Positions 505 to 31,960 of a DNA stretch of 37,852 nucleotides are shown one piece after another. The first letter of the stretch is position 1, and the number at the start of each line of letters is the position of its first letter. The notes under the pieces are model-generated. The model did not search any database and was not told where the DNA came from. It was given only the letters and a program-made list of their open reading frames with translations. Both the position numbers and the translations under genes were made by a program. Origin of the DNA: an uncultured Candidatus Saccharibacteria bacterium (lineage in GTDB: Bacteria; Patescibacteriota; Saccharimonadia; Saccharimonadales; Saccharimonadaceae); NCBI GenBank assembly GCA_947166125.1, contig CAMVCW010000004.1, forward strand, positions 66,949-104,800, in the 5' to 3' direction.

Positions 505-860
505 GGGGCTGACAAAGCTTAGACGGATTATTAACAGATGTGATGCGTGTCGACTAAATACCGTAAGTATTAATAAGTGTAAAAAACACAAAAACTGCGC
601 ATGTTGCTTACATGCCAGCTTATGCCTAATTTATTCTAGGCTGGTTTTAGTCTGAGTTTCCGTAAGACTAAAATTATCATACTACGGGAATAAGGCCATC
701 TAGGTAGCGTAGGATAGCACGAAAAATTAGCTATGGCGGCTATTAGTTTCGTTTTCTGTTTACTAATAGCATACGCCAAGACGAAAATAGAAAACTACAC
801 ACGTAGAGTCATGTCCCAGTGATAGTTCGGACGGGGAGGCAGTATCCCCCAGCTCCACCA
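505..860 (+). ncRNA. ssrA: Transfer-messenger RNA (tmRNA)
   Basis: tmRNA rescues stalled ribosomes: it is charged with alanine like a tRNA, then supplies a short open frame that tags the unfinished protein for degradation. The 5' end GGGGCTG (505-511) pairs with CAGCTCC (850-856), and the 3' CCA (858-860) is encoded. The tag frame reads VKNTKTAHVAYMPAYA and ends at TAA (627-629); the resume codon is probably GTA at 579-581 or one just upstream. The tag ends AYA rather than the common ALAA. The T stem is clear (833-837/845-849), but the 7-nt T loop is GGCAGTA, lacking the near-universal TTC. The identity is secure; the resume codon is inferred. Confidence 0.93.
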
Positions 861-4381: not shown

Positions 4382-4415
4382 ATCAAAAAATCGCCCTTTT
4401 GGGCGGTTTTTTGAT
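4382..4415. terminator. Bidirectional terminator between rpmB and rnpB
   Basis: CGCCC (4392-4396), loop TTTT and GGGCG (4401-4405) are flanked by A6 on the left and T6 on the right, with further TATCA/TGATA pairing. It can end the rightward infC operon and the leftward rnpB transcript. Confidence 0.85.
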
Positions 4416-4417
4416 AT

Positions 4418-4751
4418 GAGCCGTCTTTAAGCCGGGTTCTGTAACCATATATAATATATGGTTGGCAACCATCTATCTTGACGTTACATTGCTATAACGT
4501 TCTAGCGGTGAGCGTGCATCCTCGAGCGAAGGTATATAGCACTCCTTGCAACAGGTAGGGTTTGCCTCCACGCCGTATCGCTACAGCGCGCTGTGAGCTC
4601 TTGCCTCACTCTTTTCACCCTTACCTTCCGAAGAAGGCGGTATTGTTTCTGTGGTACTTTCCCTATCCTTACGGACGGTCGCTGTTAGCGACTACCCTGC
4701 TCTATGTTGCCCGGACTTTCCTCTTATAAAAAGCGGTCGCCTTTCAGGCTC
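4418..4751 (-). ncRNA. rnpB: RNase P RNA, bacterial type A
   Basis: This is the catalytic RNA that trims the 5' leader from tRNA precursors. On the minus strand it has the hallmark GAGGAAAGTCCGGGC near the 5' end, internal ACAGAAA, GGTAAGGGTGAAA and GGCAAACCC, and AACCCGGCTTA near the 3' end. P1 forms between GAGCC (5') and GGCTC (3'). A TATAAT (4763-4758) lies just upstream. Ends are estimated to within a few nt from P1. The ~334-nt length is a little below E. coli's 377. Confidence 0.95.
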
Positions 4752-4791
4752 CCCTGTATTATATCATAATTTAGAAAAAACCGAAATTCTC

Positions 4792-23875: not shown

Positions 23876-23918
23876 AATACTTAAGATTATACCACATATT
23901 TGGCTAAACACAAAAAAA

Positions 23919-23999
23919 GACGGGCCCTGCCGCCTTTCCTCCCCCCAAAATTTTGCATGTGCAAACATTTTGGGGGTCCCCCTCCAGGCGTCACCCGTC
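23919..23999 (-). repeat. Post-stop structured element, copy C
   Basis: GACGGGT/GCCCGTC outer stem (extended by flanking AAAA/TTTT to about 23914-24004), second stem GCCT/AGGC, central stem CCCCCAAAATGTTTGC/GCAAAATTTTGGGGG with loop ACAT. It starts 4-9 nt after the rplU stop and precedes the parA promoter. The T-rich 3' flank suggests it can also terminate transcription. Confidence 0.9.
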
Positions 24000-24008
24000 T
24001 TTTAAAGT

Positions 24009-28175: not shown

Positions 28176-28206
28176 CCTTGCGGTGTTTAGGATCGTAATG
28201 GCACCG
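28176..28206. repeat. Third site with the FISUMP-leader core motifs
   Basis: CCTTGCGGTG (28176-28185) and TGGCACCGTAA (28199-28209) match the two strands of helix P3, but in the reverse order on the plus strand, spaced to form a small hairpin. The remainder of 28040-28352 contains the promoter of the 27710 gene and no other coding sequence I can support. Confidence 0.4.
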
Positions 28207-28352
28207 TAAAACAAATTTTGATTTTTAAATAACTGGTGTCTATCTTATAGGCAAATTCCTTTCTTTGATTAATGTTTAATGTTTTTGTCTTACATGGGTT
28301 TATCCTTTCTTTTGGAAAACTTGTGACTTTTTATTTTGATTGTCGCACTACT

Positions 28353-28568
28353 TTAGGCGGCGACTTCTTTGTCTTTTTCTCCTTTCCAATTCCATAAACC
28401 ATCTATAGATAATTTGATGGAAGATTTTTTGATTTTAGCTATAGTTTCCTTTGTAACGTCGCTTGGCGAGATATACATACCTTCGTCTTCAAATGGTTGA
28501 TAATCTATGTCGTCTTTCCAATCCGAATCTATTACTTTGGTTGGTAGTTGGATGGTTTGTGTTGTCAT
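28353..28568 (-). CDS. 71-aa protein of unknown function under a strong promoter
   Basis: 71 aa, lysine- and aspartate-rich, starting MTTQTIQLPTKVIDSDW, with a WNWKGEKDKE tail. No family recognised. AAAGGA lies 7 nt before the ATG. It has the strongest promoter in the window (TTGACA-17-TATACT), with a perfect palindrome in the spacer, and a terminator follows at 28158-28132, so it is a separate, probably regulated unit. Confidence 0.65.
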   Translation of the reverse strand: MTTQTIQLPTKVIDSDWKDDIDYQPFEDEGMYISPSDVTKETIAKIKKSSIKLSIDGLWNWKGEKDKEVAA

Positions 28569-28643
28569 TTTGTTTTCCTTTGTTTTTATTTTTGTTTAGT
28601 TGTGATTTGTTAGAATTTTTGTTTTGTTTTCTAACTTGTTTTG

Positions 28644-28672
28644 AGTATAGCACACATGTGTGATTTTGTCAA
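28644..28672 (-). promoter_or_regulatory. Strong promoter with internal operator palindrome
   Basis: TTGACA (28672-28667), 17-nt spacer, TATACT (28649-28644). The spacer holds the perfect 12-bp palindrome CACACATGTGTG (28651-28662), where a bound repressor would block RNA polymerase. Confidence 0.7.
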
Positions 28673-28765
28673 TAGTATTTATGCTTAAAATATGGTGATT
28701 TGTCAAATTAACAGGGGTAAAAATATACAAAAACTTAAATGAGCTTTGCTTAAACATATCTTATA

Positions 28766-28932
28766 AAAACCTCAAAACTCGTATTTTTCTCAGCGATTGA
28801 AATGCGCGCCAAGATAATTTTTTACAACACCAGGCGGCTTTCTACCTGGAACTTTCCAGGTTTTCAAGCCGTGGAGTTGTAAAAATTATATGGGCGATTT
28901 CAAATGCTTCAAAAATAGAGTTTTGAGGTTTT
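28766..28932 (+). ncRNA. Long rod-like hairpin RNA (6S-like candidate)
   Basis: AAAACCTCAAAACTC (28766-28780) pairs perfectly with 28918-28932. The stem continues after one bulge (TATTTTT/AAAAATA), is interrupted by a loosely paired region (TTGAAAT/ATTTCAA and CGCC/GGCG), then runs ATAATTTTTTACAAC/GTTGTAAAAATTAT (28814-28828/28876-28889) and ends in CGGCTT/AAGCCG and ACCTGGAA/TTCCAGGT. A closing stem, a looser centre and an upper stem over ~167 nt recall 6S RNA. Strand is uncertain; a plus-strand promoter TTGTCA-18-TATACA (28700-28729) favours plus. It could also be the ileS terminator or a palindromic insert. Bases 28569-28975 hold no gene. Confidence 0.45.
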
Positions 28933-28975
28933 TTGAAGCTAAGTTTCCGCTACTTACCTTGCTATTATTAGGCTT

Positions 28976-31960
28976 TTAAACCTTCTCTAGAGTAATCGTG
29001 ATGTTTTCGCCGTTTAGCTTGGCGATTTCATCATGGGAGTAGTTTTGATTTTTAGCTATTTCGGTGGCATTGACCTCAAACTTTATCAAATCTTCGTAGC
29101 CTTCTGGTAAATCTATAGATAGCGACAATTTAATTTGATCGTCTACCTGGAGACCGGCGTGCTTGCGGGCGGCTTGGATAGCACGGATGAGATCGCGAGC
29201 GCAGCCTTCCCTCTTTAGCTCTTCTGTAAGGGTTTTGTCCAATGTTAGCTCTGGGCCATTTTTAACTTTCTTTACGTTCACTTCGTCGGCGATAATTTGT
29301 TCGTAGAATTCTGGCAATTTTTCACCGTCGTATACAAGTTTGGCGAGGGGCTGTCGGATTTTGATTTGTTGTTCGGTCTCGGATTTTTGCATACGAAGAG
29401 CTAAGGCATCGGTGATAATCTGGCGCGTGCGAGCCATCTTGACTAATACATCTTCGTCGATTTTTCCAGCTACAGGCCAATCCAATAGATGAACAGATTC
29501 GGTGCTACCGGTCATTTTCTGGTATAGTTCGTCGGCTAAGAACGGGGTAAATGGTGCTAAAATTTTGCTAAGATAAACTAATACATAATAGAGGGTAGCG
29601 TAAGCAGAGGTTTTGTCGGCTGCGTTGTCGTTTTTACTGAAGCGACGGCGGGAGCGGCGGACGAACCAGTTAGAAAGATCGTCAATAAATGGGAGAACAT
29701 TTTCTAGCGCTTTAGGGATATTATATTCTTCCATACCGGAGGTGATGTCGTTTCTTAACTGGTAGACGCGGGAGATGATCCATTGGTCCAAAGGTGAGCT
29801 CAAAATGCGCTTCGTTCGACTCGCTTCGTCGCGCCCGTCGTTACGGGGCTCCTCGCTCATTCCGCTCCCGTCGTCGCGTACGGTCTCACGAAGCAACATT
29901 TCGAGCTCTTCGTTGTCTACTCCATCAATTTCAGCGTAGGTCGTAAAGAAGTCATAAACATTCCAAATCATGGCGAGTTTACGGTTGACATCGGAGACGT
30001 CTTTATCGAGCAGGGCAAAATCTTCACCAGAGAGGACTGGACTAGACAACAGCAAGAAGCGGAGACTATCTGCGGAGTATTGATCCATTAAGATATTTGG
30101 GTCGGTGTAGTTGCCTAAGGATTTACTCATCTTGCGACCGTCATTCCCCGCCAGGGTGCCAGTAGTGATGACATTTTTGTAGGCATTTTTGGGGCCGTTT
30201 TTGGCCTTTTCACCGAAGGCACCGATTTCGGCCAAAGTGGTGTTTACGGCGTGAACGTAATAGAACCAAGCGCGAACTTGCCCAACATACTCCACGATAA
30301 AATCGGCTGGATAGTTGCGTTCGAACTTTTCTTTATTTTCGAACGGATAGTGGAGCTGCGCGAATGGCATGGAACCAGATTCAAACCAGCAGTCTAGCAC
30401 CTTTTCGATACGAGTAAAGTGCTCACCATCGATATCAAACTCAATTTCGTCTACCCAAGGGCGATGATAATCTTCTAGTTCCTTGCCAGAGAGCTCTTTA
30501 AGCTCTGCGTATGAACCGACCACTTTAATGCTGCCCTTATCGCCTTTCCAAACCGGCATAGCGGTAGCCCAGAAACGGTCACGGCTGAGGTTCCAATCTG
30601 GGGCGGCTTCGATATTTTTGGCGAAGCGACCATGTTTTAGATAGCCCGGGAACCAATTAATGTTCTCGTTTTCGGCGAGCATCAATGGTTTTTGTCCTTC
30701 GATATCAAAGAACCATGACGGGAAGGCGCGGTACATAATGCGTTCTTTGGAGCGAGGATTAAATGGGTATTCGTGCTGAATATATTCAATTTTGTAGATA
30801 ATTCCCTTTTCTTCTAGACATTTAGCAATGAATTTATTGGCCGCCCAAATTTGGATGCCGTGTTCATCGGTGTCGCGTACGCCGAGAGCGTGGAGCTTGT
30901 CGGCATATTCTGGCGTATAATAGCCGTTTTCGTCTAGGGTGTCTATAAATTCAGCTTCATTTTGATGCTCCAAATATAGAGCATAGTCATCTTCACCGTA
31001 AGCCGGAGCGATATGGACGATACCGGTACCTTCTTCTTCGCCAACAAAATCCGCAGTGTAAACTTGACATATTGTGTTATCCATGCTATAATACTGACAG
31101 CCAGCGAGGCTGGTACCAGTGATTTTGTTATCTATAACTTCGTAGTCTGTATCTGCGAAGATTTTTTCTATCTTGTTTTCTGCAAGAATATAAACTTCGC
31201 CACCTACTTTTACTTTGGCATAATTCATATTTGGACCTACTGCCAACATGCGGTTAGCCATGAGGGTCCAGGGGGTTGTGGTCCAGGCTAGGAAATACTC
31301 ATCAGAATCTTTTGCCTTGAATTTTACATAGGCAGATGGGTCGGTAACGGTCTGATAGGCGTCGTTATCCATAGTGACTTCGGCTTTGGAAACAGGGGTG
31401 GCAAATTTAGTATCATACATCAAAACTTTGCGACCTTCATAGATCTTCCCTGCTTCGTAAAGCTTTTTAAAGGCCCACCAAACAGATTCCATGAAATCTT
31501 TGTTCATGGTGCGATAACAATTGTCAAAATCTACCCAGCGGCCAACCCGCTCGATAGTGCTGCGCCAAGCCTCAGAGTTGGCGACCATAGATTCGCGAGC
31601 TTTGACGATGTAATCTTCTAGGCTCCATTTGGTGCCGATGTCGCGGCGATCAGTAATACCAAGCTGTTTCTCTACGAAATTTTCGGCGGGTAGGCCGTGA
31701 CAATCCCACCCCCATTTGCGTTCCACGCGATAGCCGTTCATAGTGTAATAGCGCGGAACTGCATCTTTGACTACGGAGCTAAGGAGCGTGCCATGGTGCG
31801 GCAAGCCCGTAATGAACGGAGGACCGTCGTAGAAGACGTATGACTTATCGATTGGACGATTTTCTACCGACTGTTCAAACGTTTTGTTCTTTTTCCACCA
31901 CTCAGTGAGGGCTTTTTCGTATTCTATGGCTTTTCTTCTTTGGCCAGCTCGGTATTTCAT
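28976..31960 (-). CDS. ileS: Isoleucyl-tRNA synthetase, type-2-like
   Basis: 994 aa. Charges tRNA-Ile and edits valine. It has GWDCHGLPAE near the N-terminus and KMSKSLGN, and the overall pattern of type 2 (eukaryote-like) IleRS, a group often less sensitive to mupirocin. The class I HIGH motif reads HHGT (in GLPHHGTLL), with threonine where the last histidine is expected. An anticodon-binding domain follows the catalytic core. AAAGGAG precedes the ATG. A T-box leader controls it. Confidence 0.95.
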   Translation of the reverse strand: MKYRAGQRRKAIEYEKALTEWWKKNKTFEQSVENRPIDKSYVFYDGPPFITGLPHHGTLLSSVVKDAVPRYYTMNGYRVERKWGWDCHGLPAENFVEKQLGITDRRDIGTKWSLEDYIVKARESMVANSEAWRSTIERVGRWVDFDNCYRTMNKDFMESVWWAFKKLYEAGKIYEGRKVLMYDTKFATPVSKAEVTMDNDAYQTVTDPSAYVKFKAKDSDEYFLAWTTTPWTLMANRMLAVGPNMNYAKVKVGGEVYILAENKIEKIFADTDYEVIDNKITGTSLAGCQYYSMDNTICQVYTADFVGEEEGTGIVHIAPAYGEDDYALYLEHQNEAEFIDTLDENGYYTPEYADKLHALGVRDTDEHGIQIWAANKFIAKCLEEKGIIYKIEYIQHEYPFNPRSKERIMYRAFPSWFFDIEGQKPLMLAENENINWFPGYLKHGRFAKNIEAAPDWNLSRDRFWATAMPVWKGDKGSIKVVGSYAELKELSGKELEDYHRPWVDEIEFDIDGEHFTRIEKVLDCWFESGSMPFAQLHYPFENKEKFERNYPADFIVEYVGQVRAWFYYVHAVNTTLAEIGAFGEKAKNGPKNAYKNVITTGTLAGNDGRKMSKSLGNYTDPNILMDQYSADSLRFLLLSSPVLSGEDFALLDKDVSDVNRKLAMIWNVYDFFTTYAEIDGVDNEELEMLLRETVRDDGSGMSEEPRNDGRDEASRTKRILSSPLDQWIISRVYQLRNDITSGMEEYNIPKALENVLPFIDDLSNWFVRRSRRRFSKNDNAADKTSAYATLYYVLVYLSKILAPFTPFLADELYQKMTGSTESVHLLDWPVAGKIDEDVLVKMARTRQIITDALALRMQKSETEQQIKIRQPLAKLVYDGEKLPEFYEQIIADEVNVKKVKNGPELTLDKTLTEELKREGCARDLIRAIQAARKHAGLQVDDQIKLSLSIDLPEGYEDLIKFEVNATEIAKNQNYSHDEIAKLNGENITITLEKV

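Follow-up and report, generated by a model that had tools for sequence, protein, structure and literature searches.

The window analysed here is a stretch of 37,852 nucleotides (GenBank assembly GCA_947166125.1, contig CAMVCW010000004.1, positions 66,949 to 104,800, forward strand) from an uncultured Candidatus Saccharibacteria bacterium, whose genome was assembled as 816,580 bases in 8 contigs. Its ileS gene has relatives in other Saccharibacteria, many of them from ruminant guts according to their record titles. A long hairpin starts 43 nt past the ileS stop codon in the direction of that gene, and both genes flanking the hairpin lie on the minus strand (Table 1). An earlier note on this DNA described the hairpin as filling the whole gap between ileS and the 71-aa frame and as preceded by a plus-strand promoter. 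The hairpin covers only 167 of the 407 bp between the two genes, and a promoter scan of positions 28200 to 29300 found no site on the plus strand; its three matches all lie on the minus strand, while shuffled sequences give 2.7. A TTGAC-containing stretch is also found after ileS in many relatives.

Table 1. Features of the window (coordinates are window positions; an empty cell means that no entry was made)
Feature	Position	Strand	Basis
tmRNA gene	505-860		Rfam
RNase P RNA gene	4413-4752		Rfam
71-aa ORF, downstream of the hairpin	28353-28568	-	ORF list
Promoter-like site TTGACA-17-TATACT before the 71-aa ORF	28644-28672	-	Promoter scan
Outer arm and T/A run, one side	28752-28788	+	Pairs with 28911-28946; 81% over 36 nt; arm score 26
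Whole palindromic element including the perfect 15-bp closing stem	28766-28932	none	Folding; whole-window fold scan
Core of 122 nt, an imperfect palindrome conserved along with its mismatches	28789-28910	-	10-copy alignment; boundaries from 37 copies
Outer arm and A/T run, ileS side	28911-28946	+	Complementarity; arm score
ileS, 994 aa; in the direction of the gene the hairpin comes after it	28976-31960	-	ORF list; relatives

Folding of positions 28766 to 28932 yields a minimum free energy of -77.4 kcal/mol for the plus strand (z = -10.4) and of -79.0 kcal/mol for the minus strand (z = -12.6). On neither strand did any of 200 shuffles fold as well, so that the near-continuous 167-nt hairpin reported earlier is real. 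The same holds for its closing stem, in which AAAACCTCAAAACTC (28766-28780) pairs with GAGTTTTGAGGTTTT (28918-28932) over 15 bp and without mismatch. Beyond this stem a weaker complementarity reaches out to 28752-28946; the arm score of 26 compares with a mean of 7.5 and a maximum of 13 for shuffled sequences. When the whole window was folded in 320-nt pieces, the hairpin proved to be the strongest unbranched one, with 73 pairs at 28760-28938 (paired fraction 0.82) against 54 for the runner-up. The family orientation of the core (CGAAGC...GCTGAG) reads on the minus strand, i.e. the strand of ileS. Another palindrome of the window lies between rplU and parA (23912-24003) and has terminator-like arms, AAAAGACGGG and CCCGTCTTTTTTT; in relatives, unrelated palindromes or a plain terminator occupy this place.

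RNA gene or dispersed DNA element

At gathering threshold, Rfam finds RNase P RNA, tmRNA and two tRNAs in the whole window and nothing at the hairpin. A permissive scan of positions 28600 to 29100 gave 11 matches, with 6S RNA absent from them; all are models of plant miRNAs and snoRNAs that stay well short of their gathering scores, and such models match any long hairpin. The best of these, plant MIR821 (41.8 bits, gathering score 249), was attributed to chance similarity with a long hairpin.

Copies of the hairpin are present elsewhere. In the same genome, BLAST detects a second copy with 90% identity over almost the whole hairpin, and a covariance model built from an alignment of 10 copies recovers three full copies plus partial or weaker matches; each full copy was also scored on the other strand, so that these copies make up 6 of the 13 listed matches. 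Of the 174 genomes of the genus, 102 match this model at E ≤ 0.1 and 97 at 1e-3, and the matches per genome, both strands counted, reach at least 17. Among 392 genomes of the order 53 match at 1e-3, namely 52 in this genus and one, with a weak match, in a different genus of the same family. Judged from these searches, the element appears to occur almost exclusively in a single genus of rumen Saccharibacteria. All genomes are metagenome assemblies, taken at assembly level, and the same pattern is seen in assemblies made independently of each other as well as at orthologous sites. In the open-licence literature on palindromic elements, template switching and in-frame insertions of the Candidate Phyla Radiation (CPR) we found no published description of the element. 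A second hairpin family of the window genome (L135, L136 and L138, at G000 C5:13008-13083, C3:28249-28340 and C2:91031-91107) has a conserved motif of its own and self-complementary outer stems that are different at each copy.

Downstream of ileS, 18 of 80 relatives have a copy recognised by the model, and 27 of 79 have a long hairpin by folding; the others show a short terminator or almost nothing there. All 18 copies are oriented like ileS. Between rpsG and gap, a further shared site, the orientation varies from genome to genome. The window hairpin is one copy of a dispersed palindromic DNA element. The scattered copies in genome and genus bear out the palindromic mobile insert that the earlier note had entertained as an alternative, and their occurrence elsewhere in the genome is what that note itself had named as speaking against an RNA gene. 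Its further alternative, an unusual terminator, may apply as a side effect of the element: 22 of 37 copies examined lie at most 25 nt from an apparent gene 3' end, whereas a scan for intrinsic terminators (G+C-rich stem and U run), which allows loops of 3-8 nt only and is blind to a long hairpin, found none here. On the minus strand a T run follows the stem of the window hairpin. The copy after ileS would be tolerated, or perhaps useful as a 3' barrier, with no RNA product needed.

A structured regulatory RNA transcribed from the hairpin, 6S-like or other, would fit the very stable and conserved architecture as well as the recurrence of the post-ileS copy at the same position and strand. It would also fit the strong covariation of the core, where in 10 copies 84.9% of the cells pair (71.4% in shuffles), double changes occur at 31 of 54 pairs (18.9 in shuffles) and the covariation score amounts to 0.364 (0.161 in shuffles, at most 0.18 for slid structures). 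Covariation alone, however, is not proof of a functional RNA in a long hairpin, and in this strength it is expected of a palindrome kept up at the DNA level. Over 47 copies and 54 core pairs we counted 2168 Watson-Crick pairs, 29 G.T, 38 A.C, 213 other combinations and 90 gaps, using a pair list built with G.U folding off so that G.T and A.C are treated alike. Since an RNA read from one strand should favour G.U, the absent excess of G.U over A.C points to pairing upheld as DNA rather than as RNA. The RNA reading is further opposed by the lack of an Rfam match to the hairpin, by the multiple copies per genome at unrelated sites, by the absence of the element from 72 of the 174 genus genomes even at the loose threshold, and by the varying orientation at the rpsG-gap site. 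We regard an RNA gene as exceedingly improbable, and the 6S RNA proposed in the earlier note, with no match to its model at either Rfam setting, is abandoned.

Outer stems and orthologous insertion sites

From four element-rich genomes 38 copies were fetched and 37 scored, L150, a member of a longer subfamily, having been dropped before counting. These copies have in common a core of about 122 nt, and their outer stems of about 20-25 bp are unrelated from site to site. Scored against its own right arm, the left arm reaches 18 on average and at least 14 in 33 of the 37 copies, with a median matched length of 22 nt that includes a T run of 4-5 nt at the core edge; the own-arm score of 3 for L149 results from a misplaced boundary. 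The 1332 mismatched pairings average 4.1, and four of them score at least 14, two being between the orthologous L165 and L172. Left arms of different copies of the same genome resemble each other equally little (mean 4.2, maximum 12, n = 154). Eight pairs of copies have cores that are 97-100% identical, one pair being 100% identical; their left arms score 3-6 against each other and 14-24 against their own right arms. Hence, a core with conserved mismatches occurs at unrelated sites, and near-identical cores carry unrelated outer stems. In these four genomes most arms are rich in A and T, and coding 3' ends are among them. The nearest copy of the window genome, C2, shares part of the arm of the window copy (left-left score 19), so that the outer stem there is not wholly site-specific. 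Two copies in G045 likewise share arms, and the mobile unit may thus at times carry the stem along. No empty site close enough to identify the native arm of the window copy was found after ileS in relatives.

Sites with and without the element could be compared at two junctions of convergent genes. At the first, L178, the element-free genome G036 reads ...TTCAGTCAAGCTCTAA-ACTATTGCAGA-GATTGCATATATAA..., whereas in G192 the gene end ...TTCAGTAAGGCTATAG is followed by 8 bases and the core; next come CTCTCTAGCTATAGTTTTACTGCAA, an inverted form of that gene end, and TGATTGCATATATAA. Relative to the empty site, the filled one has about 150 nt more, which corresponds to the core and one arm. The inverted arm of G192 retains AAA (Lys) where the gene now reads AGG. 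Among 26 junctions, 17 are element-free with a longest inverted repeat of 0-8 nt, compared to 17-18 nt in the filled G160 and G192, with 17 nt in G160; other palindromes are found in G156 (23 nt), G044 (12 nt) and G148 (22 nt), other short inserts or terminators in G054 and G035, and three junctions were not joinable. Across the orthologous junctions of L156, L178 and L172, the palindromes of G156, G044 and G148 are unrelated ones with 12-23 nt arms of their own, located at the same convergent-gene junction.

The second locus, L172, is the mirror case: here it is the left arm that repeats, in inverted form, the native end of the right-hand gene. The comparison took in 30 loci, of which G160, G038 and G165 are filled like G192 and have longest inverted repeats of 17-24 nt; in G192, the query, the outer arms contain a mismatch, and the 16-nt repeat that is its longest perfect one falls within the core. 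A further 17 are short junctions with inverted repeats of 0-9 nt, the two with 9 nt being small terminators; the rest consist of another subfamily in G119, a longer insert in G190 and eight loci matched on one side only. Since the orthologous empty sites lack the inverted copy, this arm arrived together with the element, and a hairpin already in place is ruled out at L178 and L172. At both loci, what accompanies the element is flanking DNA copied in inverted rather than direct orientation, a trace not expected from the usual insertion of mobile DNA. Two loci were left out of these counts: L156, where the two flanking genes mostly gave matches at separate places, and L152, where most junctions (45-149 nt compared to 280) are empty by size and the intergenic DNA is too diverged to name the native arm.

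Four model matches lie in frame within ileS (L061, L046, L071 and L063). They sit in two loops at which other species have other in-frame palindromic inserts or, in many cases, none. Their outer arms are complementary, are made of host codons plus insert, and score 12, 18, 17 and 22, respectively, with shuffled means of about 7 and maxima of 13-14; the score of L061 is within the range of its own shuffles. In-frame inserts of another palindrome family at IleRS position ~221 (L029, L037, L039, L041) were not included in the empty-site counts; their arms agree with an inverted flank copy, L039 and L041 being either empty sites or deletion footprints. The ileS of the window itself carries an in-frame insert, VRDDGSGMSEEPRNDGRDEASRTKR, at amino acids 694-718 (29807-29881), and very similar peptides occur at several IleRS loops of relatives.

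Proposed fold-back copying and its alternatives

Taken together, we consider it probable that the hairpin belongs to a dispersed, non-coding palindromic DNA element whose core recurs at unrelated sites and in whose outer stem one arm is an inverted copy of the host flank, made by fold-back copying. Fold-back template switching is the likeliest mechanism that we infer from the sequence comparisons. The core would be treated as a folded strand of DNA, its two ends held close to each other at the foot. On joining of a target end, or during replication, this foot would allow the growing strand to turn back on itself in the manner of quasipalindrome template switching, in so far as the available portions of PMC8794818 and PMC6649704 describe it. 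The strand would then copy about 16-25 nt of the flank and return to its normal template, and the same switching would keep the arms matched later.

Alternatively, the element might insert into the loop of a hairpin that was already there, e.g. an intrinsic terminator, the variable outer stem then being the terminator stem of the host. In line with this, the copies cluster at gene 3' ends as described above, element-free relatives often have short terminators after rplU and ileS, and some palindromes after these genes, including the one between rplU and parA of the window, have terminator-like arms. However, most empty junctions at L178 and L172 lack an inverted repeat longer than 8-9 nt, which refutes terminator-loop insertion at these two loci; moreover, the AT-richness of most arms in the rich genomes and the coding 3' ends among them speak against it, as do the paired arms of the in-frame ileS copies. 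As a general explanation, this is very unlikely, and it may hold for particular copies. Somewhat better placed, yet still unlikely, is an older insertion that gained and keeps its matched arms by quasipalindrome correction, i.e. template switching, or by selection for structure, with the cores homogenised by conversion. Template switching is able to create and maintain stems according to the accessible text of PMC8794818, and the core is rich in double changes. In addition, the four species with apparently orthologous copies at L172 have arms that differ between species and are matched within each, suggesting that later co-evolution acts beside, or instead of, copying at insertion; if these copies go back to one old insertion, the arms were re-matched afterwards, and if not, the site was hit repeatedly. 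Against this explanation stand the eight pairs in which virtually identical cores already have unrelated, well-matched arms, as well as the lagging AAA codon at L178, which implies that arm correction is not continuous.

A search of the 174 genus genomes for Y1 transposases and reverse transcriptases identified no mobilising enzyme for the element. Y1 transposase was rejected, being present in 6 genomes and absent from the window genome, G107, G119, G160 and G192. Reverse transcriptase was rejected as well: it is found in 97 genomes, the window genome included, but not in G160 and G192, which are rich in the element, nor in G163 and G116. The reverse transcriptase domain of the window genome lies in a 389-aa frame (G000 C3:21067-21660).

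Beyond fold-back copying at single sites, several element families may share one insertion route. A more far-reaching proposal, which we put forward tentatively as a possibility short of an even chance, is a new class of mobile DNA: hairpins without constant ends would insert as folded single strands, prime fold-back synthesis and write an inverted copy of about 16-25 nt of the flank, gene ends included, at each insertion. The growing stem would shield the element or act as a terminator, and several unrelated cores of this genus would use the same route.

Comparison with known systems

Integron attC sites are folded single strands in which unpaired bases are conserved and stems variable; their ends are conserved while the middle varies. 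Compared from its description, this layout is the reverse of that of the Saccharibacteria element. REP/REPIN sequences, which RAYT (Y1) transposases move, are palindromic DNA often found at gene 3' ends. The present element is likewise palindromic and often near gene 3' ends, but its hairpin is far longer, and the Y1 enzyme of the RAYT type is as rare in the genus as stated above. With MITEs such as Correia, RUP, ERIC and YPAL the element shares its short, non-coding, dispersed and inverted-repeat character. The terminal repeats of MITEs are constant and their target-site duplications mostly direct, as far as the accessible parts of PMC10969869/PMC2229807 describe them; in contrast, the ends of the Saccharibacteria element vary from copy to copy, although C4 and C2 in the window genome have part of an arm in common, and its flank duplication is inverted at the two loci examined.

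In quasipalindrome mutation, a switch of the growing strand creates or mends perfect inverted repeats (PMC8794818, available portions), and the coding palindromes of Nematomorpha mitochondria are perfect inverted repeats of the template-switch kind (PMC6649704, available portions). Both lack a mobile core, whereas the Saccharibacteria element has a conserved one at its centre.

Rickettsia palindromic elements (RPE) are dispersed hairpin elements of 105-150 bp that lie between genes and in frame inside protein genes; the accessible parts of PMC10969869 and PMC2229807 give their mobiliser as unknown and list them with a 12-bp terminal inverted repeat and a question mark for target duplication. 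The question of how short palindromic elements spread has been open since this description (PMC10969869/PMC2229807, same parts), and, if our reading is true, an inverted rather than a direct flank duplication would be a readable signature of it. In-frame palindromic elements would then also extend to the CPR, to streamlined genomes and to an essential gene. With about 150 bp, its dispersal through the genome and its in-frame copies in a protein gene, four of them in ileS, the Saccharibacteria hairpin resembles RPE, which are known here by description; it differs in belonging to another phylum and in its site-specific outer stem, which is, where testable, an inverted copy of the host flank.
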